Virus record (IMG/VR): IMGVR_UViG_3300013118_000326
Span: 1 to 32,736 of that record
Strand: one strand, 5' to 3'
DNA from: a virus
DNA length: 32,736 nucleotides
The first letter of the stretch is position 1. Each line of letters starts with the position of its first letter. Shown one piece after another: positions 430 to 11,705 of the stretch. Both the position numbers and the translations under genes were made by a program. Below the pieces are notes generated by a model. It had not been told where the DNA came from. It did not search any database and was given only the letters and a program-made list of their open reading frames with translations.

Positions 430-715
430 TCTCGGCCTCCAGCCTCTTCTTCGCTTGGGAGGAGTTCCAGTCTTTGTCCAGCCTAGACATCTCTGCCGCT
501 GGGTGTTCAATGTCTGCGACGGCTGTGCCTTGCCTCCGCCACCATCCCTCCCTGTACGCTTCCCCCACCTCAGTGGCTAGGCGGGAGCGGAGGCGGTCAA
601 TCTCGGTTTCTGCTTCTCGGAGGGCATCGACTAATCCCGTGATGTCGCCCATGTGCCAGGAGCCGTCCCGCTCGCGGACGCGGCTCACTATCTCATCTGC
701 TGTTAGTCTCGGCAT
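422..715 (-). CDS. Hypothetical coiled-coil protein, 97 aa
   Basis: ATG at 715 with AAGGA five bases upstream; an earlier in-frame ATG exists but has no ribosome site. The middle of the protein (residues about 25-60, ALREAETEIDRLRSRL) has heptad-like spacing and is probably helical or coiled coil. The C-terminal third is charged. No family recognised. It sits 1 base after the preceding gene and overlaps the next by 8 bases, so it belongs to the same operon of small accessory genes. Confidence 0.7.
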   Translation of the reverse strand: MPRLTADEIVSRVRERDGSWHMGDITGLVDALREAETEIDRLRSRLATEVGEAYREGWWRRQGTAVADIEHPAAEMSRLDKDWNSSQAKKRLEAENG

Positions 716-716
716 G

Positions 717-878
717 TTAGTCCTTGGCCTGCCAGAAGCGGCAGGCGGTAGCATCTGCTGCCTTCTCTATCGGCTGTCGGTCCCAGTGGCACAGGCCGTG
801 ACGGGTATGTGGTGGACGGTCGTATCGCTTGAAGAACCGACACTCCTTGCACATGCGATCTATCAGCCTACTACTCAT
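717..878 (-). CDS. Small Cys-rich protein, 53 aa
   Basis: The coding frame is longer upstream, but the ATG at 878 follows a GGAGG-rich stretch and overlaps the preceding stop (871) by 8 bases, so I choose it. The 53-residue product has CKEC near residue 10, followed by a Cys near 27 and one near 46, ending in a CRFW motif. This spacing (CxxCxF then GxC, then CxFW) fits a small zinc-binding fold common among phage accessory proteins. Function is unknown; it could bind nucleic acid. Confidence 0.6.
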   Translation of the reverse strand: MSSRLIDRMCKECRFFKRYDRPPHTRHGLCHWDRQPIEKAADATACRFWQAKD

Positions 879-1134
879 CCTCCACCTCCGGAAGTGGGAG
901 CCAGCGGCCCGACTCAAAGCACGCTTCGTACTCAGGCCAGCGGATGCAGGACACGGCTTCGCCATCCCGCCATAGCACCCATGTCCCATCCTTCGGCGGC
1001 AGCTCCTCCGATACCTTCCTCCAGCGGGTCTGGTCTAGGAGCCGGATGAGGGATCGCTTCGCCTGCTCGATCTCATCCCGGCCCCAAAGCTGATGGTGCA
1101 GCCCCTTCAGCGCCTCCATCTCCCCCCTAGTCAT
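871..1134 (-). CDS. DUF551-like small protein, 87 aa
   Basis: The C-terminal half follows the pattern of DUF551-type phage proteins: a Trp-rich segment with LPPKDGTWVL, then a strand-rich stretch, then WLPLPEVE near the end. The N-terminal 40 residues are helical and charged. Start is ATG at 1134, which overlaps the preceding gene by 8 bases behind AGGAGG; a second ATG at 1119 behind a G-run is possible. The last 27 bases of the coding region are nearly identical to the end of the gene at 1399-1785 (see the repeat entries). Function of the family is unknown. Confidence 0.65.
   Translation of the reverse strand: MTRGEMEALKGLHHQLWGRDEIEQAKRSLIRLLDQTRWRKVSEELPPKDGTWVLWRDGEAVSCIRWPEYEACFESGRWLPLPEVEDE
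881..907 (-). repeat. Gene-end repeat, copy A (pairs with 1403-1429)
   Basis: Twenty-five of 27 bases match 1403-1429. Both copies are the 3' end of a coding region and give the same tail, LPLPEVE. The repeat suggests that small-gene ends have been exchanged by recombination at a shared sequence. Confidence 0.8.
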
Positions 1135-1342
1135 GGTCCTCCTCGTAGAAGAACCTCGGCAGCAACAGGTCGCCTTCCTCGCAGACGAGGCTAATCCCTG
1201 TCGGCTGCTCGTCGTCCTTCTCGTCCAACGGCACACCATTCTCCTCCGCAATCTGAGTGCGCCACACTGCGAGGGCATGTGCCCAATCCGCCGCCACCAC
1301 ATACATGGGGCGGTCGCAGTCTTGCACATGGAATAGCCTCAT
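1127..1342 (-). CDS. Hypothetical protein, 71 aa
   Basis: The frame is open further upstream, but the ATG at 1342 has GGAGGAAGG directly before it and starts a clean domain (MRLFHVQDCDRPMYVVAAD). This N-terminal strand-turn-strand followed by an amphipathic helix (ALAVWRTQIAEE) is a form I associate with small phage proteins of unknown role. The C-terminus is very acidic (FFYEEDHD). It overlaps the next gene by 8 bases. Confidence 0.7.
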   Translation of the reverse strand: MRLFHVQDCDRPMYVVAADWAHALAVWRTQIAEENGVPLDEKDDEQPTGISLVCEEGDLLLPRFFYEEDHD

Positions 1343-1398
1343 CCTTCCTCCTTCTTTCCTGTTCCCTCGCCGGCGGGGCAATCTTCCGTTGGCGGCTC

Positions 1399-1785
1399 TC
1401 ATTCCACCTCCGGGAGTGGGAGGCAGCGGGCGGCGGTCATTGCTGCCCTGTGTGCGCCGCCAGTGCAATCACAATCGTCGGCATCCCCTGTTTCCCTGTA
1501 CTCGCACCCTGCCTCACAGCCGCCTTGCTCAAAATGGGCGAATTTCGCTCGCTCCAGATTGTGCAGCGCCTCCCTGTACTTGTCACGCTCTGCGCGGAGG
1601 GTGGCGATCAGCTTCATGCACGCCGCGATACCCCTCTTCTCAAGCCCCTGCGGGCTATGAACGCACGCACGCAGCCTCTCTATCTCCCTGTCCTTCTCGG
1701 AGCAGGATGGGCAGGGGGGCAGATTGATGATGCCCTGCACATAGGCCCCGCATGTCGGACAGCGCGGCTCTACTCCTGTTGCCAT
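1399..1785 (-). CDS. Zinc-finger and coiled-coil protein, 128 aa
   Basis: The N-terminus has two CxxC pairs, CPTC (residues 9-12) and CPSC (25-28), which would form a zinc ribbon. A charged helix follows (about 29-80). The C-terminal part has another Cys cluster (CEAGCEY, CDC) and ends in LPLPEVE, like the gene ending at 871. The ATG at 1785 is preceded by GGGAGG at good spacing. Such proteins may bind nucleic acid or a host protein, but no specific function can be assigned. Confidence 0.7.
   Translation of the reverse strand: MATGVEPRCPTCGAYVQGIINLPPCPSCSEKDREIERLRACVHSPQGLEKRGIAACMKLIATLRAERDKYREALHNLERAKFAHFEQGGCEAGCEYRETGDADDCDCTGGAHRAAMTAARCLPLPEVE
1403..1429 (-). repeat. Gene-end repeat, copy B (pairs with 881-907)
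   Basis: Twenty-five of 27 bases match 881-907, 522 bases away in direct orientation. It encodes the C-terminal LPLPEVE of the zinc-finger protein. Confidence 0.8.
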
Positions 1786-1809
1786 CTCAAGCCTCCCTTT
1801 CCTTGAGGG

Positions 1810-2283
1810 CTATAGCAAAACCCCTAGCGGTTTCTCTGCGGGCGGCATCTGCTCTGGCAGTATTTGCAGCGCGACGAGTCCACCCTTAGTCTCTCCCACC
1901 ACGCAGAAGCCTGCCCTGCGGTAACACCTGCCAGGATCACGCTTGCGGCGCACATTGCCTGCATCCACAAATGTCACCATGCCCAACTCGGGCGGGTCGC
2001 CCCACTTCCACCGTGTTGCGGCTATCGCTTCGCAGATTAGTTCGCTTGCTATCGGCCCCGACTCGCGGCGGAAGAGGCTGTTCACCCATGCCCCCGCCCA
2101 AGCGTGCTTCACATACTCCGCAAAGGGCCACGATGTAACCCACAGGGCCGAGTCTGTGAGTAGAACTAGACACCTGCCCGGCGGCACAAACTGCGGCGAA
2201 CCAGGCTTCTGTCGGTTGTAGTGCCGGTCGGCCAATGGCAGGGCCGCAGGGTCGGCGCGATGTGAAAGCTGCCAGTGGATCAC
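1810..2283 (-). CDS. Conserved phage protein of unknown function, 157 aa
   Basis: The sequence (SHRADPAALPLADRHYNRQK near the start, then GRCLVLL, WVTSWPFAEYVKHAW, SELI, GMVTFVDAGNVRRKRDPG, GRCYRRAGF) matches a type of protein I have seen in many actinobacterial and environmental phages, annotated as hypothetical. The strand-helix order and the GRCYRRAGF segment resemble a GNAT-like acyltransferase fold, but I see no firm acetyl-CoA signature. The start is GTG at 2283; the G-rich stretch before it serves as the ribosome site. This region is also covered by a long read-through of the preceding gene in another frame. Confidence 0.8.
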   Translation of the reverse strand: MIHWQLSHRADPAALPLADRHYNRQKPGSPQFVPPGRCLVLLTDSALWVTSWPFAEYVKHAWAGAWVNSLFRRESGPIASELICEAIAATRWKWGDPPELGMVTFVDAGNVRRKRDPGRCYRRAGFCVVGETKGGLVALQILPEQMPPAEKPLGVLL

Positions 2284-2569
2284 TCCCCCCTTTCCTTGAG
2301 GTAGTGGAGAGGGCGGGCTGGATGGCAGCCATTGCGCTGCCCCTGCCGGTGTGCTCGTCTACAACCTCGGCCATTGCCACCGCCGCCTCTGCCAGCGCGT
2401 CCGCAGCGGCGAGGGCTTCTGCTTGAGCGTCCTTGGCGGCCAACCATGCAAGCCACGCGAAGTCGCGGGCACCTTCATCAAGCGATTCCACAACCACAGT
2501 CTTCTCAACCCACACATTGAACAACCTCTTCTCCTTCGCCAACTCCTCATCCGTCAACATCTTCTTCAT
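1937..2569 (-). CDS. Helical protein, 210 aa as read; C-terminal half probably frameshift read-through
   Basis: ATG at 2569 follows GGAGGG at good spacing. The first 85 or so residues look like a real protein: a charged N-terminus, then a long Ala-rich helix (residues 40-75). From about residue 90 the frame runs for 347 bases through the well-conserved gene at 1810-2283, in a different frame and with an unnatural composition. If two bases of the CTCTC at about 2309-2313 are removed, the frame ends in HYLKERGE and a TGA overlapping the next GTG (GTGA), the arrangement expected in this operon. I suspect a small insertion or an assembly error. Only the N-terminal part (about 2285-2569) should be trusted. 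Confidence 0.55.
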   Translation of the reverse strand: MKKMLTDEELAKEKRLFNVWVEKTVVVESLDEGARDFAWLAWLAAKDAQAEALAAADALAEAAVAMAEVVDEHTGRGSAMAAIQPALSTTSRKGGSDPLAAFTSRRPCGPAIGRPALQPTEAWFAAVCAAGQVSSSTHRLGPVGYIVALCGVCEARLGGGMGEQPLPPRVGADSKRTNLRSDSRNTVEVGRPARVGHGDICGCRQCAPQA

Positions 2570-2627
2570 GCTATCCCTCCTCTACTCCGCTATGATGATG
2601 ACCGGGTCGCCCTGTAGTATGGTTTCA

Positions 2628-3095
2628 CTAGCGCACCACCACGATCTTTTCAGGTTCCTTGCCGGGCTCGCGCTTGAAGTACACGCCACTCGTCTTGGGC
2701 GGGTAGCTAACTCTGCGGCCCGCCACGTCGTAGTATCTAACTCCTGTGCCTGTCTCATATTTAGTCGGAGGACTAAGCGGCACTAAAGGTGGCTCCGTGA
2801 TGCAACGCCAGGCGGGGCCGCTAAACTCCGCGCCCATGCTGTCCCGCACCAAGGCTCTCAGCACGGCCAGGAAGTATTCGCAGCGTGTGCGTATCGTCTC
2901 ACCTGTTACCTGGTCGTAAGCCTCTCTGCTACCGTCGCCGCCGCAGTACGGAGTAGGGGGCCATACTACGAGGTCATCAGGGAATAGCATGTCCTCGCAG
3001 CCGCCACCGCCGCCGCCGGGCAAGGCGTGCATGTCGGGATCTCGTGCGTAGGCGGGGCTTGCTAGCAGCATCAGCACAACCGCCAGTCTCCACAT
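2628..3095 (-). CDS. Secreted protein with a T9SS/FlgD-like C-terminal tail, 155 aa
   Basis: Residues 1-17 form a clear Sec signal peptide (MWRLAVVLMLLASPAYA, AYA cleavage site). The mature part contains a Gly run, several Cys residues that could pair outside the cytoplasm, and a C-terminal block with YYDVAGRRV, SGVYFKRE and KIVVVR. That order of motifs is the hallmark of the FlgD-Ig-like or Por-type (type IX secretion) C-terminal domain of FCB-group bacteria. ATG at 3095 follows GGAG. The neighbours are methyltransferases and small accessory genes, so this looks like a moron-type gene affecting the cell surface. The sorting-domain reading is inference from motif order and not certain. Confidence 0.7.
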   Translation of the reverse strand: MWRLAVVLMLLASPAYARDPDMHALPGGGGGGCEDMLFPDDLVVWPPTPYCGGDGSREAYDQVTGETIRTRCEYFLAVLRALVRDSMGAEFSGPAWRCITEPPLVPLSPPTKYETGTGVRYYDVAGRRVSYPPKTSGVYFKREPGKEPEKIVVVR

Positions 3096-3122
3096 TGCTT
3101 TATAGCTCCTTCTCCCTCCTGT

Positions 3123-3308
3123 CTATCCTCTCCACACGCAGGGCCGCACGATCAGGTTTCGCGCCGGGTGTCCGGCGTCAGGCTTGATCGGGCATTCCTC
3201 ATCACGCTTGTCGTGGAACACGGCCCGACTGTCTGCCTTGTCGAACCAAAACGCCTTTGTGCCGCAGCAGGCATCCAGGACCGGCGGGTATTCTCTGTCA
3301 TCGCTCAT
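3123..3308 (-). CDS. Truncated SAM-methyltransferase-like protein, 61 aa
   Basis: The sequence YPPVLDACCGTKAFWFDKAD at residues 7-26, followed by VFHDKRDE, matches the first strands of a phage methyltransferase family whose members run on through a second block (usually ending in DPPH) for about 150 residues. Here the frame stops after IVRPCVWRG, so the catalytic half is absent. The ATG at 3308 overlaps the preceding methyltransferase stop (ATGA, 3305-3308). Its last bases lie in a 14-base repeat shared with 4103-4116, which suggests truncation by recombination. It could still be expressed as a short protein. Confidence 0.55.
   Translation of the reverse strand: MSDDREYPPVLDACCGTKAFWFDKADSRAVFHDKRDEECPIKPDAGHPARNLIVRPCVWRG
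3132..3145. repeat. Direct repeat flanking the methyltransferase cassette, copy A
   Basis: CCACACGCAGGGCC here is identical to 4103-4116, 971 bases apart. The two copies bracket the complete methyltransferase and its truncated companion. Confidence 0.8.
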
Positions 3309-4069
3309 TTGTCACCTCCATTGTTTGCCGAACAAGACGTTCCAGAGGACGGCTTGCAGCCGCCTCTGAACTCATCGTTCTCCTGAAATAAATCCATCTG
3401 CCGCGTTTCCCGCTCGATGCGCTCGCAGGCGGCGTTGAAATAGTCCTCGTCGATCTCCGTTGCGGTCAGATACGCGCCGAAGTAGTGGCAGGCAATGGCG
3501 ATGCTTCCGCTTCCCATGTGTGTATCGAGTATGCGTTGCCCCGGCTTTGCCCAATTCGCAAGTAACCACCTGTAGAGCTTCGTCGGCTTCTGTGTGGGGT
3601 GGATTCTAGGCTCCTCGGCAACGAAGCCAGCGTTTGCGCAGTAAGCAAAAAGGCGAGCACGCCCCTTAAACGACGACCAAGCAAACTCCCATTCAGACGA
3701 GTTTTTTTGATTCGGTCGTACCTTGTCCCAACAAATAGGTTGCTCTGTTGGCGGCAGATCAAAGAAGTTTCCGCCCCAAATTATTTGATTAACTGATACG
3801 CGGTAAACTTCCTCGAAATACTCCTTTGGCGGTGCTACGTCCCACACTTCCGCGCCACTGCCGATCATGCCCGAATATGCCCCGTTTTTTCCGCCGCCCT
3901 TTACGAGTCGATCCCCGATCCCGTAAGGCGGATCAACAATAGCCAGGTCGAAGTGATTGTCGGGCGTATCCCGCATCAAGTCCATGCAATCGCCCAACCT
4001 CAAATCAAGAAAGGGAGAACAAGACGGTGGAGCCAATGCCCGCCCCTGCGCTTCGCTTGTGTCAGTCAT
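3305..4069 (-). CDS. DNA methyltransferase, DPPY type, 254 aa
   Basis: A DNA amino-methyltransferase (N6-adenine or N4-cytosine). The catalytic DPPY (motif IV) is at residues 46-49, HPTQKP at 157-162, and the SAM-binding motif I as DTHMGSGS at 182-189 with E205 as the likely ribose-binding acid. Catalytic motif before SAM motif is the beta-class order. No restriction endonuclease gene is next to it, so it is best read as an orphan phage methylase that protects the genome or affects regulation. ATG at 4069 has GGAGG at good spacing. The C-terminal 35 residues are low in hydrophobics and probably disordered. Confidence 0.9.
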   Translation of the reverse strand: MTDTSEAQGRALAPPSCSPFLDLRLGDCMDLMRDTPDNHFDLAIVDPPYGIGDRLVKGGGKNGAYSGMIGSGAEVWDVAPPKEYFEEVYRVSVNQIIWGGNFFDLPPTEQPICWDKVRPNQKNSSEWEFAWSSFKGRARLFAYCANAGFVAEEPRIHPTQKPTKLYRWLLANWAKPGQRILDTHMGSGSIAIACHYFGAYLTATEIDEDYFNAACERIERETRQMDLFQENDEFRGGCKPSSGTSCSANNGGDK

Positions 4070-4102
4070 GGCTCACCTCCGCGTTCGCAATATCGACCTC
4101 GG

Positions 4103-4116
4103 CCACACGCAGGGCC
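4103..4116. repeat. Direct repeat flanking the methyltransferase cassette, copy B
   Basis: Identical to 3132-3145. This copy overlaps the stop codon of the M15 peptidase gene. Confidence 0.8.
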
Positions 4117-4499
4117 TAGTAGACCCATAGCGCGGGGCGGTTGCGCTCGTAGCACATATCCAAGTGAACGAAGCCCCTGGCTACGCCGATCCCGACGAAA
4201 CCATACCTCCGCGAGAGTGCGACGAGCCTGTCTCTCTTGCCTGCATCCGTGATGCGGATATCAACGGCACGGCCCGTGGTGTGCGGGCCTCCTCCGGGCA
4301 TTGAGGAGGAGCCGACTCTTTCGTCATGGCGGCGACAGCGGAAGCCACTTGTAACGGGCAGCGGGAACCCGCAATCATGCCGCAGCTCGTCCAGCGACCC
4401 CATAAACTCCGCGTCCATGCCGCCTGTTGGGTGGAGGTGTTCGTCGTAGGTGCATCCGCATTTACAGCCGACTTCTTCCCGCGTAAAGTATCTCCACAT
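4116..4499 (-). CDS. M15-family peptidase, probable endolysin, 127 aa
   Basis: The motifs of peptidase family M15 are complete: SGFRCRRH (51-58), then HTTGRAVD with zinc ligands H73 and D80, and GFVHLDM with H112 and D114. Members cut peptide cross-links of peptidoglycan; the length of 127 residues fits the short catalytic-domain-only phage and tail-type enzymes. ATG at 4499 follows AGGAGG by 8 bases. Notably it lies in the early operon between DNA-metabolism genes, 20 kb by the circle from the holin. It may be a displaced endolysin, and I see no other clear muralytic enzyme except the permuted NlpC/P60-like protein at 12443. Confidence 0.88.
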   Translation of the reverse strand: MWRYFTREEVGCKCGCTYDEHLHPTGGMDAEFMGSLDELRHDCGFPLPVTSGFRCRRHDERVGSSSMPGGGPHTTGRAVDIRITDAGKRDRLVALSRRYGFVGIGVARGFVHLDMCYERNRPALWVY

Positions 4500-4542
4500 G
4501 GTCTAGTCCTCCTGGGTCCATTTGCTGAAGGATATCCTTCAT
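4462..4542 (-). CDS. Possible 26-aa leader ORF overlapping the M15 start
   Basis: An ATG at 4542 behind a strong GGAGGGGGAG site opens 26 codons that end in TAA at 4462, overlapping the M15 gene by 38 bases in another frame. The N-terminal codons contain a perfect 14-base palindrome GAAGGATATCCTTC (4527-4540). It could be a coupling or leader peptide, or simply a chance ORF behind a G-rich stretch. Confidence 0.35.
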   Translation of the reverse strand: MKDILQQMDPGGLDHVEILYAGRSRL

Positions 4543-4564
4543 TCTCCCCCTCCTAGTCGTCGCT

Positions 4565-4939
4565 TCAAGACGAAGCGCCTAGTGCTTGGATTAGATCCCT
4601 GAACATCGCCGCGTCCATCGCCACCATGCGCTTCCACGGCCTGCCTCTGCCTTGACGGAGTTGCATCAGTAGCGCGGGTATAACTGGCTTCTCCTCCCGC
4701 TGTCGCTCGGCGTACTTCGCGGGCTGCTCCAGCATGGCCTCATAGGTGCGGCTCCACTTCGCCTTGTCCGTCTTGATTTCCCACACAAGGAAGGCGACGC
4801 CGAGGTCTTGCAGCTCCAGGTCCATGTCGCTGATCCCGTAGTCGGGCCGCTTCACTCGCTTCGTGGGGGCGATCTCCGACAGGAACTCCGCCGCCTTCAA
4901 CTCACCCTCTCGGCCTATGCTTGCTGCACTACGAGGCAC
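4565..4939 (-). CDS. PD-(D/E)XK nuclease-like protein, 124 aa
   Basis: The order of elements fits a small PD-(D/E)XK fold: a helix with GREGELKAAEFL, then GISDMDLEL with the metal-binding Asp, then a strand and WEIKT carrying the E-x-K pair. Such proteins in phages are Holliday-junction or recombination nucleases. It lies beside the replication and recombination genes, which supports that role. I choose GTG at 4939, preceded by GGGAG at seven bases and overlapping the zinc-finger gene stop by 11 bases. ATG at 4993 would add 18 residues but overlaps by 65 bases. Confidence 0.62.
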   Translation of the reverse strand: MPRSAASIGREGELKAAEFLSEIAPTKRVKRPDYGISDMDLELQDLGVAFLVWEIKTDKAKWSRTYEAMLEQPAKYAERQREEKPVIPALLMQLRQGRGRPWKRMVAMDAAMFRDLIQALGASS

Positions 4940-5438
4940 GCCTACGCTCCCTGGCCTTGCGGTTGTACTTGCGTAGCGTCGGAAGGCATTCATCGCAGGT
5001 GCGGGACTCCGTTGCTTCGCCTAGCGACTTCCCGCAGACGTGACAGGTGTACTCGCGCTTCATCTGACAGCACCACAAGGCTTCGGCCTTCTCGGTGTAG
5101 CGGTAGCCGCAGGCCGGGCAGGCGTGCGGGTGGGTTGTCTTCTTCGCCTCTGCCAGTTCCGCAAGTGTCTTCGCCCTCATCGGCCCCCAGGCGTTCGGCG
5201 TCTCGTCGTCATGCTGCCGGATGTCGGGCCAGTCGCCAGGGATGAATAGCCCCGCGAACTGCGCCTGGTAGTCTGTCTTCCTCGGGAGCGTCGGGATGTC
5301 GCGGTTGTTTTTCTTGCGCTCGGCGTACTCGCACTTCTTGCAGCGGTGCGTCCAATACTTCCTGCCGAGGCCTGTCTTCTTGAGCCGGAAGGCATGGAGG
5401 GGAAGATCCTGGCCGCAGTCGCGGCACGTCCTAGTCAT
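4929..5438 (-). CDS. Multi-zinc-finger protein, 169 aa
   Basis: Three pairs of CxxC-type motifs are visible: CRDC and CKKC in the first 40 residues, CPAC with a WCC in the middle, and CHVC with CDEC near the end. Each pair could form a treble-clef or ribbon zinc site. The basic C-terminus (RKARERRR) suggests nucleic-acid binding. The first domain resembles the zinc-binding start of some phage HNH-type proteins, but I find no HNH catalytic motif. ATG at 5438 overlaps the stop of the replication-like gene by 8 bases. Confidence 0.7.
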   Translation of the reverse strand: MTRTCRDCGQDLPLHAFRLKKTGLGRKYWTHRCKKCEYAERKKNNRDIPTLPRKTDYQAQFAGLFIPGDWPDIRQHDDETPNAWGPMRAKTLAELAEAKKTTHPHACPACGYRYTEKAEALWCCQMKREYTCHVCGKSLGEATESRTCDECLPTLRKYNRKARERRRAS

Positions 5439-5970
5439 GGTCGCCCCCGTTCTTCTTCGCCCGCCTGCGGCGGTCCTGTTCGCGGAGTTCGTCCGCACTC
5501 GGGATGGTTTTCTCCCCCGTGCGCTTGCGCCGCCCTTTTACATTCTTAGACATTCTTACTTTGTGGTCGCGTGATGGTCGCGTGATGGTCGTATGGCTGG
5601 TCACGCGCCGGATAAAATGGACGTATGACTCGCCCTTACGGTGCTGGAACCTGTCATAATTCCTGATAGTTACGATTGTGCCCCTGTTGGTCGGCTGCTG
5701 GTCGCATATCCCCATCTCGCGGAGCATTTTCAGGCCAGTGCGGATTTCGCGCTCCGTCTGGTCAAGCGTGGCCGCAAGCGACTTGCGGCCCACAAACACT
5801 TGTCCCCGGCGCAGCCTCACCACGGCGCGAGTGGGCTCCGTCATCACGAAGTCCCCCGCCTCGACTCTTGCCTTGAGAAGTAGGTGGAGGAATAGCGCCA
5901 GCGTCTTGCCATCTTGGAGGAGCCCCGAGTCTTCAATCCGCCTCCAGACGAGCAGAAAGCCTCTATACAT
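5431..5970 (-). CDS. Replication initiator-like winged-helix protein, 179 aa
   Basis: The N-terminal 110 residues follow the pattern of phage replisome-organizer N domains: WRRIEDSGLLQDGKTLALFLHLLLKA, then RGQVFVGRKSLAATL, then EIRTGLKMLREMGI and TIVTIRNYDRFQ. This is a winged-helix DNA-binding unit like DnaD or lambda O N-terminal parts. The last third is basic (KNVKGRRKRTGEK, RRRRAKK) and probably binds DNA too. No helicase gene follows, so host helicase recruitment is likely. Start is ATG at 5970 behind a GC-rich leader; earlier frames upstream are GC-rich, unlike protein. Whether an origin lies nearby cannot be seen. Confidence 0.65.
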   Translation of the reverse strand: MYRGFLLVWRRIEDSGLLQDGKTLALFLHLLLKARVEAGDFVMTEPTRAVVRLRRGQVFVGRKSLAATLDQTEREIRTGLKMLREMGICDQQPTNRGTIVTIRNYDRFQHRKGESYVHFIRRVTSHTTITRPSRDHKVRMSKNVKGRRKRTGEKTIPSADELREQDRRRRAKKNGGDHD

Positions 5971-5994
5971 CGCCCCGCCGCAAGGTTTGAGAAA

Positions 5995-6027
5995 CCCCCG
6001 CCCCAAATCCCACATCCAAGGCGGGGG
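5995..6027 (-). terminator. GC-rich hairpin before the replication gene, possible attenuator
   Basis: CCCCCGCC (5995-6002) pairs with GGCGGGGG (6020-6027) over a 17-base loop. On the minus strand the stem is followed by TTTCTC. The loop is long and the T-tract short, so termination would be weak. It could also be part of an origin. Confidence 0.35.
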
Positions 6028-6095
6028 CACGCAAATACAGGCTGTAGAAGCCAATCTGCGCGCTGACCGTGACTAGCGGCTACGCACGCACATTA

Positions 6096-6114
6096 CTCCC
6101 CGCACTCTGCGGGG
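6096..6114 (-). other. 8-bp hairpin just after the tRNA-like fold
   Basis: TCCCCGCA (6096-6103) and TGCGGGGA (6107-6114) form a perfect stem with a 3-base loop. It lies 6 bases 3' of the tRNA-like acceptor end. There is no T-tract, so it may protect or bound the RNA rather than end it. Confidence 0.5.
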
Positions 6115-6120
6115 ATCGGT

Positions 6121-6197
6121 GCGCGAGGAGAGACTTGCACTCCCCCGCCTCCGCGCTGTAACCGGAGACGCCTGCCCGCCGCGAGCGGGCCTCGCGC
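6121..6197 (-). ncRNA. tRNA-like RNA, 77 nt, noncanonical cloverleaf
   Basis: On the minus strand, 77 bases fold into a cloverleaf-sized shape. The 7-bp acceptor stem is GCGCGAG with CTCGCGC, followed by ACCG in place of ACCA. The T-arm is a 5-bp stem with a 7-base loop TGCAAGT, next to the acceptor as in a real tRNA. The middle arm is a 6-8 bp stem with a 9-base loop GTTACAGCG instead of 7, so no anticodon is certain. The D-arm has a 4-6 bp stem but only a 5-base loop and lacks the GG pair. It is not a normal elongator tRNA; it may be a degenerate tRNA or a mimic. Confidence 0.5.
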
Positions 6198-6257
6198 AGA
6201 AAAGGCGAGCCGCACACCGGCCCGCCTCCAGGTACTAACGAACACGAACCATTGAAT

Positions 6258-6298
6258 GAAAAGACCGGGCCTGTCCCCGCCAGCGAGGGAAACGGCCC
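6258..6298 (-). terminator. Possible terminator after the Gp157-like gene
   Basis: On the minus strand GGGCC (6298-6294) pairs with GGCCC (6271-6267), with an inner TCCC/GGGA pairing, followed by GGTCTTTTC (6266-6258). It lies about 37 bases past the stop of the Gp157-like gene. The T-tract is broken, so I hold this as moderate. Confidence 0.42.
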
Positions 6299-6334
6299 AT
6301 TGTGATTGTCTCCATGCTGGCTAGCTGATGCACC

Positions 6335-6829
6335 TCAGCGTATCCTCACGGACTGCCCCTGCACGAGCTCCGCGCCAGGGACTTTCGCGCCATCCTTGAG
6401 CGCGGCAATGATCGACTTCTTGTCGGGCTCGAACTTCGCTGGGATCTCGCGGATGAAGTCCTCGGGGAGCGCCGACTGGTCGAGGACGTTGCAGCTTGCG
6501 GGGTTGTTCTGAAGGCGCACCTTCAGGATCTCCCCCTCCACGACCTCCCGCTTGGCGCGCATCATCTGATGTTTAATGTATTCCTTGAGCCAGCGGGCTT
6601 GGCCGTCGCAGGCCCGTGCCCGCTTCGCTAGCCTGTCGGCCTCGGCCTTGATTGCGTCCCGCTCCGCCTCTCGAGCGCGTACGAGCTTCGCCACGTTCTC
6701 GACCTTCGCCGCGAAGTCCTCTTGGATCTCGTCCAAAGCCTTCTCGGAATCCTCGTCAAGCACACCCTCGCTGGCCTCCACGGCCAGGAGCAGGGCCTGA
6801 TACTCGTCTGCTAGTTTGTAGAGCTGCAT
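6335..6829 (-). CDS. Siphovirus Gp157-family protein, 164 aa
   Basis: The sequence begins MQLYKLADEYQALL and continues as long charged helices to about residue 95 (EIQEDFAAKVENVAKLVRAREAERDAIKAEADRL), then WLKEYIKHQM, and a C-terminal strand region with LQNNPASCNVLD and PEDFIREIP. This architecture and the usual length near 160 residues are those of the Gp157 family (first linked to phage-resistance in Streptococcus thermophilus). In phage operons it sits beside single-strand annealing genes, as here, and is often called a host-nuclease inhibitor-like protein. ATG at 6829 has GGAGGG at good spacing; the upstream frame is not convincing. Confidence 0.85.
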   Translation of the reverse strand: MQLYKLADEYQALLLAVEASEGVLDEDSEKALDEIQEDFAAKVENVAKLVRAREAERDAIKAEADRLAKRARACDGQARWLKEYIKHQMMRAKREVVEGEILKVRLQNNPASCNVLDQSALPEDFIREIPAKFEPDKKSIIAALKDGAKVPGAELVQGQSVRIR

Positions 6830-6839
6830 GGCTTCCCTC

Positions 6840-7049
6840 CTATTGCCATCTGTCGGTGCGGTCGCCCTCGTCGATGGGCTCCGCCGTGATGAGCATCCAC
6901 ACACCCGACGCGAGGAGGATCCCTATCCACGCGGCGGCGAACTTCGCGCCCCACGTCACGACACCCCAGCGCCATACGAGGACGCAGAAAGCGACGGCGG
7001 CAGTCCAGGCCAGCGCAGTGCCGATGCCGTCAATCATCCTGTCGAACAT
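6840..7049 (-). CDS. Small membrane protein, 69 aa, two TM segments
   Basis: Two hydrophobic segments are clear: about residues 10-28 (TALAWTAAVAFCVLVW) and 33-55 (WGAKFAAAWIGILLASGVWMLI), with a charged C-terminus. ATG at 7049 follows GGAGG at six bases and lies inside the end of the preceding 52-aa gene, overlapping 20 bases. Function is unknown; early two-TM proteins in phages are often exclusion or host-takeover factors, which is inference. Confidence 0.7.
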   Translation of the reverse strand: MFDRMIDGIGTALAWTAAVAFCVLVWRWGVVTWGAKFAAAWIGILLASGVWMLITAEPIDEGDRTDRWQ

Positions 7050-7188
7050 CTCCCGCCTCCTCCCGCGCCTGCTCGTCTCGTGCGTTCGCCAAGGCCTCGT
7101 CGATGAGCTGGAAGCCTCTGTTCATCTGCTCGAGCATGAAAAAGTCTCCCAGGGCCTCGGGGCTGATGACGTGCTTGCGTTCTTTCAT
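7030..7188 (-). CDS. Hypothetical protein, 52 aa
   Basis: ATG at 7188 has one of the best ribosome sites in the region, AGGAGG six bases upstream, and follows the ERF-like stop (7199) by 10 bases. The product begins MKERKHVISPEALG and is helical and acidic (LIDEALANARDEQAREE). No family recognised. Its end overlaps the next membrane-protein gene by 20 bases. Short length is the only reason to doubt it. Confidence 0.65.
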   Translation of the reverse strand: MKERKHVISPEALGDFFMLEQMNRGFQLIDEALANARDEQAREEAGDVRQDD

Positions 7189-7198
7189 CGCTCACCTC

Positions 7199-8023
7199 CT
7201 AGAAGGGTAGGTCGTCCTCTTCGTCGCGGTATGCTGCGGGGTGATCTGCGGGCGGGCCATCCGCCTCGCTAGGACTGGACTCGCGGGAGACTTCCTGCGT
7301 TGCCGCGTTGGCGAGCTTGCCCCTGCGGGCGAGTTCCTGCGTGGCGCAGTTGATGACGTGCTGATTCTCGGCGGCGTACTGCTCGTGATTGGGGTCTACG
7401 TTGTCGATGATCCAGGAGAGGTATCCCTTCTCGATGTCCTTCCAGGGTGTGCCCTTGTGCTTCTTCCCGAAGCGGCACGGCTGCGAGCCGTCCCACGAGG
7501 AAGGAGCCGGAGCGGGGGATGGAGCACTGCTGCTCGGCCCCCCCGCCTCAGCGCCTCGGGGGGGTGAGTCCCCTGCGGTGTGCTGCGCATTCGCGTGTTC
7601 GTTGTCGGGCTCGCTGGATTCCAGCATGAAGGCTTTCAGATTCGCCATCTTGAAGAGATAGCTGGACGCCTTCCCCGGCCCCTTGTCGCCTCCATCATCG
7701 CCAAGCCCGAGGGCGGGGACTTCCACGAAGTCTTTCGGGGAGTCCACGTTGATATAGCGGATTCCGCCGGCGATGAGCGTACGGTTGCCGTTCACGCTGA
7801 ATTCACCGAAGTAGAGCTGCGGGTAGATGCCATGCCTCACCATGAGCGGGTGAAGCAGCGCGGCCACGTCATCATGGCTCACGAAACTGTATGTGAACTC
7901 GCCGCCGGACTTCATCCGCACGCGGGCGGTGTCGGCCTTGGCAACCGACTCCACGTCCGCCATAACGGCGAGCATCCGCTGGTGGATGTTGGGACTCTGG
8001 TGGATGTTGGGACTCTCAGGCAT
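7199..8023 (-). CDS. erf: ERF-family single-strand annealing protein, 274 aa, with SSB-like tail
   Basis: The N-terminal half (MLAVMADVESVAKADTARV, then the SFVSHDDVAALLHPLMVRHGI region, then a strand with RTLIAGGIRYINV and SSYLFKMANLKAFML) matches ERF-type recombinases that bind and anneal single-stranded DNA. A low-complexity Ser/Pro/Ala linker follows, then a short FGKKHKGTPWKDI..GYLSWII module as seen in exonuclease X tails and DUF3820 proteins. The last residues are DEEDDLPF, very like the SSB acidic tip that recruits partner proteins. ATG at 8023 has GGAGG at six bases; ATG at 8038 lacks it. An 18-base tandem repeat near the start duplicates SPNIHQ. Confidence 0.88.
   Translation of the reverse strand: MPESPNIHQSPNIHQRMLAVMADVESVAKADTARVRMKSGGEFTYSFVSHDDVAALLHPLMVRHGIYPQLYFGEFSVNGNRTLIAGGIRYINVDSPKDFVEVPALGLGDDGGDKGPGKASSYLFKMANLKAFMLESSEPDNEHANAQHTAGDSPPRGAEAGGPSSSAPSPAPAPSSWDGSQPCRFGKKHKGTPWKDIEKGYLSWIIDNVDPNHEQYAAENQHVINCATQELARRGKLANAATQEVSRESSPSEADGPPADHPAAYRDEEDDLPF
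7981..8016 (-). repeat. Tandem 18-base repeat in the ERF-like gene
   Basis: Two perfect copies (7981-7998 and 7999-8016) encode a duplicated SPNIHQ at residues 4-15. A recent slippage or an expansion of a flexible N-terminus would explain it. Confidence 0.9.
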
Positions 8024-8036
8024 TGGCAACCTCCTC
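8015..8036 (-). repeat. Ribosome-site repeat, copy A (pairs with 8396-8417)
   Basis: Twenty-one of 22 bases match 8396-8417. On the minus strand both read GAGGAGGTTGCCAATG, that is a strong ribosome site and ATG. Here it starts the ERF-like gene. Confidence 0.85.
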
Positions 8037-8289
8037 AAGCGGACCGGGCAGCAAACTCGTCGATGATGAAATGCTCATATACGTCGCCCCGGCCTTTGGG
8101 GTTAGCGTAGTACCAGGATCCCGAGGACTTGCATGGGCCGGCTGCTGATTCTTGCAGGATCCAGCCGTCGCAGCATTCGCGGCGAACTAGGTCGTGGATG
8201 TTCTCTGCCTCAGCCACCCAGCAGTCATCGCTGCGGGGCGGCGCATCGCTGAGGTGGTGAGACTCGTAGAAAATCCGGTAGCGTTTCAT
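8035..8289 (-). CDS. Hypothetical protein, 84 aa
   Basis: ATG at 8289 has GGGAGG at about seven bases. The product starts MKRYRIFYESHHLS and is Trp/Tyr- and Cys-containing (CWVAEAENIHDLVRRECCDGW, then GSWYYANPKGRGD), with two or three strands and a helix. No family recognised. It lies 11 bases upstream of the ERF-like start, so it is probably cotranscribed and early. Confidence 0.65.
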   Translation of the reverse strand: MKRYRIFYESHHLSDAPPRSDDCWVAEAENIHDLVRRECCDGWILQESAAGPCKSSGSWYYANPKGRGDVYEHFIIDEFAARSA

Positions 8290-8292
8290 GGG

Positions 8293-8373
8293 CTATTCCT
8301 CCCTCTTAGAGTCTGTAGCCTTGGCGATAGCGGTGTATGCGTCGCCTACGATCGCACCTACTATTTCTGCCAT
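8293..8373 (-). CDS. Micro-ORF, 26 aa
   Basis: A 26-codon frame (MAEIVGAIVGDAYT...REE) starts with ATG at 8373 behind AGGGAGGG and ends 3 bases before the ATG of the next gene. Position and ribosome site fit a real small gene, and it would help coupling. Such short frames often are chance, so I give it moderate weight. Confidence 0.45.
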   Translation of the reverse strand: MAEIVGAIVGDAYTAIAKATDSKREE

Positions 8374-8395
8374 TCTATCCCTCCCTGCCGATAGG

Positions 8396-8417
8396 CTCAG
8401 ACATTGGCAACCTCCTC
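8396..8417 (-). repeat. Ribosome-site repeat, copy B (pairs with 8015-8036)
   Basis: This copy lies in the last codons of the excisionase-like gene (EEVANV). It would start only a 9-codon frame, so it looks like a displaced ribosome site left by recombination or duplication. Confidence 0.8.
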
Positions 8418-8606
8418 GCGGTCGCCGCGCGCCCACTCGAAGAAAGCCGCCTCATCAATCAACCACTGCCCGCGCTTCACGGGCTGCGAGCAAACGCGCT
8501 CAAAGCCGTTACGCTTGCGGAGGTCAATCAGCCGCTTAAGGCCCCTGTGCGTGGGCCAGACGTGATAGCGGCTCCATTGTGAGGCAGGGATCATTCGAGT
8601 AGACAC
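8397..8606 (-). CDS. Excisionase-like or other small DNA-binding protein, 69 aa
   Basis: It is the first gene after the leftward promoter and faces the repressor. The sequence has an N-terminal SQW helix, a GLKRLIDLRKRNGF helix, then a strand ending VKRGQWLIDEAAFFEWARGD. This is the pattern of small winged-helix excisionase or AlpA-type proteins, where the last block fixes the wing. Either Xis or a Cro-like regulator is possible. GTG at 8606 follows AAAGGAG by 4 bases; the next ATG (8594) has no ribosome site. Confidence 0.6.
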   Translation of the reverse strand: MSTRMIPASQWSRYHVWPTHRGLKRLIDLRKRNGFERVCSQPVKRGQWLIDEAAFFEWARGDREEVANV

Positions 8607-8630
8607 GCGGCTCCTTTCGTTGTGTGCCCG

Positions 8631-8642
8631 CCACGAGCGTGG
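8631..8642. promoter_or_regulatory. Candidate operator dyad CCACG-AG-CGTGG
   Basis: Perfect 5-base arms over a 2-base centre, extendable to 7 with one wobble. It lies just downstream of the predicted leftward transcription start (about 8648), a usual place for a repressor block. Confidence 0.4.
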
Positions 8643-8654
8643 TGGACATGGAAC

Positions 8655-8682
8655 ACTCTAGCATAGTTTCCGCCACTGTCAA
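8655..8682 (-). promoter_or_regulatory. Early leftward promoter, TTGACA-16-TAGAGT
   Basis: On the minus strand a full consensus -35 TTGACA (8682-8677) is followed after 16 bases by TAGAGT (8660-8655), with an extended TGC before it. The start would be at about 8648, giving a 40-base leader to the excisionase-like GTG. It would drive the whole early operon. Confidence 0.72.
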
Positions 8683-8791
8683 CGCCTATTCGCAATTAAA
8701 GTGAGGCGAACACTATCTTTTGAATACCTCAAGCCACAACGGGTAACAACCAGGAAAAATAAGGGGGAAAAAGAGTGGAAATTTTTTGAAA

Positions 8792-8819
8792 TTGACCCGA
8801 GGGAGACGTACCATATACG
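8792..8819 (+). promoter_or_regulatory. Repressor promoter, TTGACC-16-TATACG
   Basis: On the plus strand TTGACC (8792-8797) and TATACG (8814-8819) are 16 bases apart. Transcription would start at about 8826, where the strong AAGGAGGTGG lies almost at the 5' end of the message. Confidence 0.58.
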
Positions 8820-8869
8820 CTCCCACAAGGAGGTGGAGCCGCCGCCATTCCCCTCGCGGCGCAATCAAT

Positions 8870-9196
8870 ATGGAGCCTTTTGACCGACTTGTGAGGCGAC
8901 TGCTTGCAGAACGCAATTGGAAGCGCAAGGACTTGGCGGAGGCGACGGGGATCCACCCGTCCACGCTCTCGCACATCCTGAGCGGGAAAGTTGCCCCAAG
9001 CTGGCAGTCTGCGAGGAGGATTATGGAAGCACTCGGCATCCAACTGGTTGCTTACCCTCCCGATGGCTCGGGAATGTACGTCGAGCGGGACGAACTCAGG
9101 GCTTACTTGCTTGCCTTGGTGAAGGCCCTGGATGACGGGAAAAGCGGGGGTGTTGTGATGCTCGATGCGAAGAAGCTCAAGGAGCTACTGGAATGA
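8870..9196 (+). CDS. XRE-family repressor or regulator, 108 aa
   Basis: Residues 4-60 form a clear helix-turn-helix of the XRE type: FDRLVRRLLAERN, then RKDLAEATGIHPSTLSHILSGK and SWQSARRIMEALGI. It has no peptidase domain, so it is a short lambda Cro/434-like repressor rather than a LexA-like one. The C-terminal helix (ELRAYLLALVKAL) may dimerise. The ATG at 8870 is 35 bases past the strong AAGGAGGTGG; a 6-bp hairpin between them (CGCCGC with GCGGCG) could bring them close. As the only regulator in the lysogeny block it is the probable prophage repressor. Confidence 0.8.
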   Translation: MEPFDRLVRRLLAERNWKRKDLAEATGIHPSTLSHILSGKVAPSWQSARRIMEALGIQLVAYPPDGSGMYVERDELRAYLLALVKALDDGKSGGVVMLDAKKLKELLE

Positions 9197-9363
9197 TTAG
9201 CTACGTGAAGTGGATAGGGTACATCGTCGCGTACTACGCGCTGGCCCGCCTCATCCTGGAGGCGAGGGCCGCACCGGGGGGCCTCAAGGCGGTGCCCATC
9301 GTGGCGGCGGCGCTTGTGGGGTGGTTCTTGTTATTGCTCCTCACTAGCACCGTCCCGACGTAA
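9193..9363 (+). CDS. Small membrane protein in the lysogeny block, 56 aa
   Basis: ATG at 9193 overlaps the repressor stop by 4 bases (ATGA), so it is translated with the repressor. Two hydrophobic segments span about residues 6-22 (KWIGYIVAYYALARLIL) and 34-51 (VPIVAAALVGWFLLLLLT), with a charged loop between. Being coexpressed with the repressor in the lysogen, it may be a superinfection-exclusion or surface protein. That role is inference. Confidence 0.75.
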   Translation: MISYVKWIGYIVAYYALARLILEARAAPGGLKAVPIVAAALVGWFLLLLLTSTVPT

Positions 9364-9378
9364 CAGGGAAATCATGGT

Positions 9379-9499
9379 CCACTCTTGGGCCACGAAGGAC
9401 TGGTTAAGAGTGGTCGATACCGGGTGCTATGGATTGCAGGGATGTCCTCAAGCTCCTGTCCTCCAGCGCATTCTCGCCCACTCTTAACCTTTCTTAACC
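9379..9499. promoter_or_regulatory. Integrase arm-type repeats of attP
   Basis: GGTTAAGAGTGG (9402-9413) is the exact reverse complement of CCACTCTTAACC (9478-9489). A related CCACTCTT lies at 9379-9386 and a TCTTAACC repeat at 9492-9499, ten bases after the 9482-9489 copy. This pattern of direct and inverted short sites next to the tRNA-like core is that of arm-type binding sites for a tyrosine integrase. Confidence 0.75.
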
Positions 9500-9502
9500 G
9501 TC

Positions 9503-9567
9503 CCGCCAGGGGACTCAAAATCCTCCGGGCTGCGGCCCTTGTGGGTTCGACTCCCACCTCCGGCACC
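9503..9567 (+). other. attP core: 3' half of a tRNA-Leu(CAA)
   Basis: From about 9509 the plus strand holds the 3' part of a tRNA: anticodon stem-loop GGGGA-CTCAAAA-TCCTC (CAA anticodon), a long variable arm with GGGC-TGCG-GCCC (type II, Leu), T-arm GTGGG-TTCGACT-CCCAC, acceptor strand CTCCGGC and ACC. The matching 5' acceptor and D-arm are absent upstream, so it is not a working tRNA gene. On integration it would restore the host gene. Confidence 0.88.
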
Positions 9568-9645
9568 TTTAGATTCAACGACTTACAATCGCGTTAATTC
9601 TGCCTTGAATCTCTCCTTGACAGCCGTGGGCCGCGTGTGGTCCAA

Positions 9646-9673
9646 TTGCAGAAATAGAATCGGGCTTTATAAT
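9646..9673 (+). promoter_or_regulatory. Integrase promoter, TTGCAG-16-TATAAT
   Basis: A perfect TATAAT (9668-9673) with TTGCAG (9646-9651) 16 bases upstream. Transcription would begin near 9680, just before the GTG at 9689. Confidence 0.65.
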
Positions 9674-9688
9674 AGATCGGGGGTAATA

Positions 9689-10714
9689 GTGGGGAGCATA
9701 CAGGAGAGATATAACAGCGATATGAGCCTTAAGTACCGCGCCAGGGTGAGACTTAGAGGACACCCCCACGAGTCCGCGACGTTCGACAGGCTCACCGATG
9801 CGCGGGAGTGGATCAAGGCAACTGAGTCCGCTATTAGGGAGGGCCGCTACTTCCCGTCCCGGAGCTCGATGAAGCACACCCTGGCCGATGCCGTGGAACG
9901 CTACACCCGAGACGTTGCGCCCCGGCGGAAGGGCGCGAAGAAGCGGAGCGCGCAACTGCGATGGTGGGGAGAGAGGCTTGGCCCGCGCCTGCTGGCCGAG
10001 CTCTCCCCCGCCCTCATCGCGGAGGCCCGCGACAGCCTGACGACAGGCCCGGCAACCGCCAACCGCTACCTCGCCGCGATGAGCCATGTCTGCACCGTGG
10101 CCTCGAAGGAGTGGGGATGGATGGAGACGAACCCCGTCCGCAAGGTCGCCCGCCTGCCGGAGCCGCCGGGACGGGTGAGATTCCTGGGCCCCGACGAGCA
10201 GTCGGTCCTCCTGAGTGCTTGTCAGAACCGGAAATCAGGCGCGCTCTACGTAGTCGTATTGCTGGCCCTTTCTACGGGGATGAGGCAAGGGGAAATCCTC
10301 GGCCTCCGCTGGCCGGACGTGGATCTCTCGCGGGGATGGATCTTGCTACATGAGACGAAAAGCGGGGATCGGCGAGGGGTGCCCCTGCGGGGCGCGGCTC
10401 GGGAGAGCTTAGAGAAGTGGGCCAAGGTGCGCCGGCTGGACACGGATAAGGTGTTCCCGCTCAAGAGCATCCGCACGGCCTGGCTTAGATCAGTCGCAGA
10501 GGCGGGCTTACAGGACTTCCGATTCCACGATCTCCGCCATTCAGCAGCCTCTTACATGGCGATGAACGGGGCTTCGGCCACGGAAATCGCAGCCCTGCTT
10601 GGGCACAAGACGTTACAGATGGTCAGGCGCTACGCCCACCTGTCGGATGAGCACCTCGACAAGATCGTGGACGCCATGAATATGGCCTTCATACGGCCCG
10701 GCGGCCCATCCTGA
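9689..10714 (+). CDS. int: Tyrosine-type integrase, 341 aa
   Basis: A site-specific recombinase of the lambda-integrase family. Arm-binding N-domain (YRARVRLRGHPHESATFDR), core-binding helices (about 60-150), and a catalytic domain with R199 (GMRQGEIL), K224, H280 and R283 (FHDLRHS), H306 (LGH) and Y315 (RRYAHLS) from the GTG start. All active residues are present. Start is uncertain: GTG 9689 gives the typical MGSIQER opening and follows GGGGG; ATG 9722 follows AGGAGAG at 13 bases. The longer frame upstream is the tRNA part of attP and not coding. The gene ends convergently with the Cys-rich gene at 10689. Confidence 0.92.
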   Translation: MGSIQERYNSDMSLKYRARVRLRGHPHESATFDRLTDAREWIKATESAIREGRYFPSRSSMKHTLADAVERYTRDVAPRRKGAKKRSAQLRWWGERLGPRLLAELSPALIAEARDSLTTGPATANRYLAAMSHVCTVASKEWGWMETNPVRKVARLPEPPGRVRFLGPDEQSVLLSACQNRKSGALYVVVLLALSTGMRQGEILGLRWPDVDLSRGWILLHETKSGDRRGVPLRGAARESLEKWAKVRRLDTDKVFPLKSIRTAWLRSVAEAGLQDFRFHDLRHSAASYMAMNGASATEIAALLGHKTLQMVRRYAHLSDEHLDKIVDAMNMAFIRPGGPS

Positions 10715-10898
10715 ATCGGTAGAGCGGGCAGGGCGGGCAGCAGCACTCCTTGACATCCGCCAGATTCCCGCCCACGCAGGAAACGCAAAAGGCGCGGATC
10801 GCATCGGCCCGCGCCCCCGTCTTGCGAGCGGCCACCGCCGCCCTCTCAATGTTCCGAACGTGCTGCTTCACGTCACGCTCTGAATAGACCTCCTGCAC
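10689..10898 (-). CDS. Small Cys-rich conserved phage protein, 69 aa
   Basis: The C-terminal part reads CVSCVGGNLADVKECCCPPCPLYRFRMGR. The pattern (C-x2-C-x-GG, then C-x-x-CPLY-x-x-RxG) is typical of a small zinc-binding protein seen at the ends of many phage late operons and usually labelled hypothetical. The N-terminal half is a charged helix. GTG at 10898 follows AAAGGGG. It overlaps the integrase 3' end by 26 bases on the opposite strand. It may be the last gene of the late operon or separately transcribed. Confidence 0.7.
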   Translation of the reverse strand: MQEVYSERDVKQHVRNIERAAVAARKTGARADAIRAFCVSCVGGNLADVKECCCPPCPLYRFRMGRRAV

Positions 10899-10917
10899 CC
10901 TAGCCCCTTTCTAGAGT

Positions 10918-10951
10918 ATGGCGGAGCGGCTCTATGTGCGCTCTCCGCCAT
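10918..10951. other. Inverted repeat between the holin and the Cys-rich gene
   Basis: ATGGCGGAG (10918-10926) pairs with CTCCGCCAT (10943-10951) over 16 bases. There is no T-tract on either strand. It may partly end late transcription or bind a protein. The remainder of 10899-11008 shows no gene. Confidence 0.5.
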
Positions 10952-11008
10952 CTGTATGGCCCGAACGTCACGCAGCAGTATGCGGGCGCCACCCGAGTGG
11001 CTCAAGCC

Positions 11009-11368
11009 CTATTTCTTGCCCTTCTCGTAGGATCTCCCGAGGATCCCCACGCCGAGGATTGCGGCGATCATGTGGAGCAATTCCACGGGGACCGCGATAG
11101 GCGGGGTGTTGGTGAGCGCGGCCTTGCCGAAGATGAACAGCAGTAGGCCGACGAAGGCCAGGCCCGTGATGGGTCGCCAGGTGCGGGTGAGCCAGGATTC
11201 GGATTTCGTCTCCGCCACCATGACGCCGTGCAGACTTTCCATCGCGGAGGCCTTGAGCTTCGCCAGCTCCAGCTCGAAGGCCAGGCGCTCCTCGTCGGAC
11301 GTGAATACCTTGTCTGCCGCCTCACCGACCTTCCCGAAGATCCCGCCGATTGCGTCAAGAACTCCCAT
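11009..11368 (-). CDS. Holin, GTA-type 3-TM family, 119 aa
   Basis: An N-terminal amphipathic part (MGVLDAIGGIFGKVGEAADKVF) and charged helix are followed by ESWLTRTWRPITGLAFVGLLLFIFG, a motif typical of the GTA_holin_3TM family, then a second hydrophobic stretch (LLHMIAAILGVGILGRS). The tail is basic (YEKGKK). Such holins permeabilise the inner membrane to release a muralytic enzyme. ATG at 11368 overlaps the HExxH protein stop by 14 bases. Position at the end of the late operon fits. Confidence 0.82.
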   Translation of the reverse strand: MGVLDAIGGIFGKVGEAADKVFTSDEERLAFELELAKLKASAMESLHGVMVAETKSESWLTRTWRPITGLAFVGLLLFIFGKAALTNTPPIAVPVELLHMIAAILGVGILGRSYEKGKK

Positions 11369-11705
11369 GCCATAGCTCCTTGAAGATAGGATTCGAGCGC
11401 AGCACCTGCACCATTGCAGACTCTAATGCTCGGGTGCCGCGCTCAGAAAGTGAGAGTCCGAGCGTTTCCGCCGCCGCGTGTATCGCCTCATGTGTGAGCA
11501 CCGCCAGCGGGTCAGCCGCGCCGTCTGATATCGTGATCGCCTGCCGGACTGTCTCCACCACGCCGGCGTCGTCGTAGGGGCGCACGCTGACTCTCCAGGG
11601 TGAGCCGAGAACGTCAAGCGTCAGCCCGTCCAGACAACTAAGCAGTTGCTTTCTTTCGTCGGGGCTTAACCTGCGCACCGTAGAGCTTGCCGGTAGTCGG
11701 TCCAA
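11355..11705 (-). CDS. HExxH metallopeptidase-like protein, 116 aa
   Basis: HEAIH at residues 72-76 in a helix (LAVLTHEAIHAAAETLG) is the zinc motif of zincins; a downstream acidic residue (E88 or E94) could be the third ligand. Strands before it (WRVSVRPYD) fit a minimal zincin fold. It starts with TTG at 11705, placed seven bases after GGAGGT; no ATG is suitable. It overlaps the metallophosphoesterase 3' end by 68 bases. Being in the lysis group it may act on cell wall or on a virion protein. The substrate is unknown. Confidence 0.65.
   Translation of the reverse strand: MDRLPASSTVRRLSPDERKQLLSCLDGLTLDVLGSPWRVSVRPYDDAGVVETVRQAITISDGAADPLAVLTHEAIHAAAETLGLSLSERGTRALESAMVQVLRSNPIFKELWHGSS

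Follow-up and report, generated by a model that had tools for sequence, protein, structure and literature searches.

The window, by which we mean the whole 32,736-nt stretch of viral DNA analysed here (IMG/VR record IMGVR_UViG_3300013118_000326), carries 55-nt terminal repeats at its ends and is therefore probably a complete genome. Its early block includes an ERF single-strand annealing protein (7199–8038, minus strand; PF04404), downstream of which lie a gene of the Sipho_Gp157/Mu Gam-like family (6335–6904, minus strand; PF05565, 5e-43; phrog_253, 2e-40) and a DnaD-like helicase loader (5431–5970, minus strand; phrog_2514, 1e-14). The reading frames were used to delimit the loader, and the ATG at 5970 was preferred over the TTG at 6054 with which the longest ORF begins. 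A tRNA-like element (6121–6197) is located in the gap between the latter two genes on the minus strand, running from 6197 to 6121 like the coding strand of both neighbours, and is followed on its 3' side by ACCG (6117–6120).

The element consists of a 5' acceptor strand, a 'D' arm, the trinucleotide AGG, a middle arm, a T-arm and the 3' acceptor strand, in this order. The acceptor stem has 7 bp, with GCGCGAG (6197–6191) exactly paired with CTCGCGC (6127–6121), and the T-arm (GGGAG-TGCAAGT-CTCTC) has 5 bp including one G-U pair. The 'D' arm (GCCCGC-TCGCG-GCGGGC) is a 6-bp stem with a 5-nt loop without GG, and the middle arm (CGTCTCCG-GTTACAGCG-CGGAGGCG) is an 8-bp stem with a 9-nt loop that ends 0–1 nt from the T-arm. 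The original prediction, a 77-base fold with exact acceptor and T-arms at tRNA spacing, a 5-base D-loop lacking GG, a 9-base middle loop and an ACCG end, was thus borne out in its geometry and could be assigned to the minus strand, which it had left unstated. The minimum-energy fold of the isolated minus-strand element was a four-way junction of −46.5 kcal/mol (z −2.6; equalled by 4 of 200 shuffles), and the acceptor, D and middle arms had pairing probabilities of ∼0.98–0.99. The plus strand folded no better than its own shuffles (z +0.28).

At the level of known RNA families, neither ARAGORN, a check proposed with the original prediction, nor Rfam called a tRNA at the site, and neither the tRNA nor the tRNA-Sec model matched the element at E<10. 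The likeness to tRNA (RF00005) lies in a 7-bp acceptor stem and a 5-bp T-arm at tRNA spacing, with a 7-nt loop carrying T54, C56, R57, A58 and Y60, together with G53-C61 and A73; the loop TGCAAGT fits the consensus T54-T55-C56-R57-A58-N-Y60 at all positions except 55, which is G. It differs from tRNA in its altered D-arm, which lacks A14 and G18G19, in G55, in the missing CCA and in having no usable anticodon arm, since the 5-bp stem and 7-nt loop with U33 are replaced by the 8-bp stem and 9-nt loop. As RNA, the element thus has the shape of a tRNA top half, yet it cannot decode. A hit to the Burkholderia sRNA ncS037 (RF02868; E 0.007, 27.3 bits against a curated threshold of 112) was rejected as a composition effect. 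Within the collection of papers searched, none describing such elements came up.

To estimate how often such a fold arises by coincidence, composition-matched Markov sequences were searched. Cloverleaf topology alone (the acceptor, D, middle and T arms spaced as in a tRNA) is expected ∼0.5 times per window and is for this reason weak as sole evidence, whereas an acceptor stem and T-arm with a TNCRANY loop are expected only 0.023 times. A descriptor requiring an arm of at least 7 bp within 1 nt of a TNCRANY T-arm, which was designed after the window element had been compared with that of a distant relative (G001, see below), had no match in 150 simulated genomes and matched only these two sites across 908 kb of loci. 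A GC-rich, hairpin-rich gap that resembles a tRNA by chance, picked out because many windows had been read, is very unlikely given the rate with the T-loop consensus and a comparable element at the corresponding early site of the one near-complete relative. The judgement that the fold is something other than a normal tRNA or a chance stem was correct.

The element is flanked by strong hairpins. On its 5' side, a 12-bp hairpin with a 5-nt loop (6229–6201, minus strand; z −3.8), which the original prediction did not mention, runs into U's and ends 3 nt (TCT) before the element; an equally long hairpin occurred at only 3 of 4,668 sampled positions, and a terminator scan did not flag it. Directly downstream lies the predicted 8-bp hairpin (TCCCCGCA-GAG-TGCGGGGA; 6115–6097, minus strand; z −4.6), which has no U-run. 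A 15-bp GC-rich hairpin (6028–5994, minus strand; z −3.9) is followed by a UUUCUC-like tract just before the start codon of the loader. Over 16 nt, the 5' arm of this last hairpin and the T-arm side of the element are 81% complementary (6135–6150 with 6019–6034).

When the fold was extended into the downstream leader, the probability of the acceptor helix fell from 0.99 to 0.01–0.25 while the middle and T arms remained, and the acceptor strand paired alternatively (6203–6196 with 6062–6055), which leaves room for a regulatory switch. This long-range pairing, together with strong hairpins on both sides, one of which has a U-rich tail and immediately precedes the start codon, would suit transcriptional control of the replication genes by a leader, acting either as an attenuator or through processive antitermination like that of HK022 put, in which the tRNA-like fold competes with the downstream hairpins. 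We consider this improbable: alternative pairings are nearly always available in GC-rich RNA, the downstream hairpins are unlike in other phages, and such control has no need of a tRNA T-loop. An element acting as DNA, such as the hairpins of a replication origin beside the initiator gene, would explain the location directly before the replication gene in both the window and G001. The G-U pairs on the coding strand and the TNCRANY loop favour an RNA of one strand, and in the unrelated phage L111 and the Bacteroides phages described below the element lies away from the initiator, so that a role in the DNA appears highly improbable.

The element was also considered as a phage attachment site and rejected. 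A tyrosine integrase is encoded at 9539–10714 (plus strand), and the adjoining 3' half of a tRNA-Leu(CAA) gene at ∼9510–9567 (plus strand) is the likely attP. Attachment-site 3' halves of tRNA genes resemble the element in the T-arm and the 3' acceptor strand. An attP is expected beside the integrase and to comprise only the 3' half of a host tRNA, whereas the element includes a 5' acceptor strand and is 3.3 kb away from the integrase. G001 has no tyrosine integrase, yet it carries a tRNA-like element.

Relatives were sought by several routes. Alignments of the large terminase subunit (TerL) and the portal protein yielded three closer relatives (L002, L003 and G001). G001 (IMGVR_UViG_3300005077_000059; TerL 52%, portal 42% and tape measure 31% relative to the window) is the only near-complete one and the only member of the window's phage group checked for the element. 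It carries a tRNA-like element between RecT and the replication initiator (L083, 3790–3854, minus strand), that is, at the same early position and on the same strand as in the window. This element has a fully paired acceptor stem (7/7), the T-arm GCTGG-TTCGAGT-CCAGC, no D-arm, a middle arm of 8 bp that abuts the T-arm on its 5' side, and a 9-bp hairpin that ends 3 nt upstream. A MAFFT alignment of the two elements put the 5' acceptor strand in the wrong place. Scans of viral contigs with single proteins (Gp157, the DnaD-like loader and the RecT of G001) returned no relatives, an exact 22-mer of the window T-arm/acceptor had no match, and no element was present on the early side of a Peptococcaceae prophage (TerL 42%). 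L003 (IMGVR_UViG_3300028895_000683, positions 1–11807) is an 11.8-kb circular element with a 144-nt terminal repeat that encodes an integrase, a primase, a tape-measure-like fragment and a TerL 62% identical to that of the window, and its attP is the 3' half of a tRNA-Ala gene. It is possibly a satellite or a deleted relative of the window's phage group.

A third element was found with a DNA pattern that fixed part of the shared T-arm/acceptor 3' half. It lies in an unrelated phage (L111, 688–774), has the same T-loop as the window element (TGCAAGT) and a D-stem like that of a tRNA but with no GG in its loop, and is preceded by a hairpin ending 4 nt upstream; neither its acceptor pairing nor this hairpin was selected for by the search pattern. 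It lies between an SbcC-like gene and further genes, after which come a metal hydrolase, HU and a DnaD-like loader. The same contig contains a long near-perfect palindrome within a replication-initiator-like gene (5388–5446). Two Bacillota genomes (L115 and L116) contain tRNA-Ser(GCT)-like genes with C33 and with GTGC in place of GTTC in the T-loop, the one in L116 having a D-loop without GG. These are chromosomal and were set aside as unrelated to the window case.

Relatives of SbcC led to the cultured Bacteroides phage BS-TP4, which carries an unannotated element (L119, 1387–1472) that scores 50.5 bits with RF00005 and has its anticodon region replaced. In BKO1-TP3, a 59-nt element without an anticodon arm follows a homologous gene; the two genes are 81% identical in nucleotide sequence up to the gene end, and the elements are equivalent in structure but differ in sequence. 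The acceptors are GATCCGA/TCGGATC in BKO1-TP3 and GGGAGGA/TCCTCCC in BS-TP4, and 7 of the 12 acceptor and T pairs (counted by eye) have changed on both sides with pairing kept. Compensatory change in homologues, on which the original prediction was to be judged, is thus seen in part, across this pair; for the window element itself only one distant relative was found. The difference between the two could reflect a deeply diverged or a replaced element.

Further elements occur in BS-TP3 (27702–27810; RF00005, 53.9 bits) and in BS-TP2 (L131), where at least two (13732–13812 and 19550–19656) were found. The three Bacteroides elements that match the Rfam tRNA model with the anticodon region replaced are those of BS-TP4, BS-TP3 and one of BS-TP2, and in matching this model they differ from the window element. 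The hankyphage-type records BKO1-TP4, BKO1-TP1 and p00 share one identical element. ARAGORN calls some of the BS-TP2 and hankyphage elements tRNAs, and these could be functional tRNAs. Up to four tRNA-like or tRNA elements may lie in gene gaps of BS-TP2, if 13340–13453, which has one acceptor mismatch, and 30195–30265, which may be an ordinary tRNA-Val, are counted; this phage also has a DUF2693-FD RNA (RF02926; L131, 12753–12801) after a DUF2693 gene. Of eight Bacteroides records chosen before any element was known in them, five carried one, three of these five sharing the identical one, at a chance rate of ∼0.02 per 50 kb; BKR1 and BS-TP1 (both read in part) and B40-8 had none. No element was found in ∼92 kb of early regions from 13 other phage records with relatives of RecT, Gp157 or SbcC (L100–L107, L117, L118, L120, L121 and L123).

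The Bacteroides phage elements sit in gaps of early operons, and all elements lie in sense orientation between genes on the same strand. Across seven elements compared, G1-C72, A73 and C74 are present in all and CCA is encoded in none; C75 is found in the window only, and U at position −1 in three (window, G001 and L111). The hairpin ending 3–4 nt before G1 is confined to these three GC-rich elements and is absent from the Bacteroides ones. The window element may share common descent with the Bacteroides elements, or the two may be independent recruits of tRNA genes.

The original prediction had listed a tRNA mimic, a degenerate tRNA and an RNA that engages tRNA enzymes as options. A mimic of an intact tRNA is unlikely, as it is the anticodon arm that has gone or been substituted. 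Alternatively, a phage tRNA gene may have become non-functional and be drifting, with its shape persisting through recent or slow decay. This would account for the Bacteroides elements that still score as tRNA (40–54 bits), for the series from nearly normal (BKO1-TP4 and BS-TP2, called by ARAGORN) to strongly altered elements, and for the G at position 55 and the missing GG in the window, by which the D/T elbow contacts were lost together. Decay should, however, break the acceptor and T stems as easily as the anticodon arm. Instead, these stems are perfect in elements of unrelated sequence, both at matching early positions (window and G001) and downstream of one shared gene in two Bacteroides phages, although the pairing is partly ascertained, as the other elements were found with a descriptor that demands it. 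In addition, the middle arm of the window element, with 8 bp and at most 1 nt between it and the T-arm, is not a broken 5-bp arm. Pure decay is thus unlikely, and of the listed options an RNA that engages tRNA enzymes comes close to the reading that we favour.

What the window element has kept is the top half of a tRNA, namely the 12-bp acceptor/T helix, the T-loop and A73-C74; the half that decodes has disappeared or given way to something else. Substrate recognition by bacterial RNase P involves the T stem-loop, to which the enzyme binds, the 12-bp T/acceptor helix, which it measures, and R73-C74-C75, with which its RNA pairs; model RNAs consisting only of the acceptor and T-arm are cleaved (PMC11143913). 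Natural non-tRNA substrates include the phage C4 antisense RNA, pre-4.5S RNA and the tRNA-like ends of plant viruses (PMC11143913). The window element shares with these the 12-bp helix, the T-loop and a 3' RC, and it has G1-C72 and the full RCC in its ACCG end. It is thus best read, with slightly less than even confidence, as a tRNA-derived, non-decoding element in the early-gene transcript, placed between recombination-type genes and the replication loader, that would most likely be cut by RNase P.

Under this proposal, the early transcript would read through the gap and the element would fold; host RNase P would recognise the top half and cut at U−1/G+1, so that a stem-loop and U-rich tail would close the upstream messenger, and that of the loader would start with a folded 5' end. 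Cutting between the two messengers would allow the upstream and loader genes to be expressed separately. We infer transcription, cleavage and an effect on expression for the window element from these features. As every element is in sense between same-strand genes, a cut at G+1 would split early messengers in the other phages as well, and the elements are probably RNase P sites through which polycistronic early RNA is cut or regulated. Since U−1 and the hairpin are missing from the Bacteroides elements, the hairpin-tailed upstream messenger may hold for the window, G001 and L111 only.

An RNA that acts in trans was weighed as a rival, namely a small RNA released from the early transcript, such as an immunity RNA like C4 of P1 or a decoy for a host enzyme that handles tRNA, with the tRNA shape serving processing and stability. 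C4, an RNA of phage origin, is known to be cut by RNase P (PMC11143913), most of the phages whose early operons harbour the elements have an integrase, repressor or transposase, and the insert separating the D and T arms varies greatly, as expected of a part that confers specificity. No antisense target of the kind expected for a C4-type RNA emerged: in none of seven elements was the insert more complementary than shuffles to the adjoining 600 nt, the window insert had no long matches elsewhere in the window, and Rfam gave no C4 match. Duplex energies were uninformative in such GC-rich sequence. The several elements in BS-TP2 fit markers better than a single immunity RNA. We therefore regard a trans-acting role as unlikely.

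The arrangement resembles, by analogy, the tRNA punctuation of mitochondrial transcripts, in which folds between same-strand genes serve as cutting marks, the differences being that it occurs in phage early operons and that the elements are non-decoding. The recurrence of similar unannotated pieces between early genes of unrelated phages suggests that tRNA shapes have been turned by phages into marks for cutting or controlling their messages. We tentatively propose, as a possibility held at less than even odds, that tRNA-derived elements lacking a decoding arm lie between early genes in many temperate phages of varied hosts and lineages and act as RNase P punctuation or control marks of their polycistronic messages, a phage counterpart of mitochondrial punctuation largely missed by tRNA finders. 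The usual explanations for phage tRNA genes are codon supply and escape from tRNA-cutting defences. Elements that retain the top half without the anticodon arm can serve neither directly. The cultured phages BS-TP3, BS-TP4, BKO1-TP3 and hankyphage p00 carry the same kind of element, which opens the question to experiment. If the proposal is true, part of the 'phage tRNA' inventory would gain another role, in the processing or control of early transcripts.
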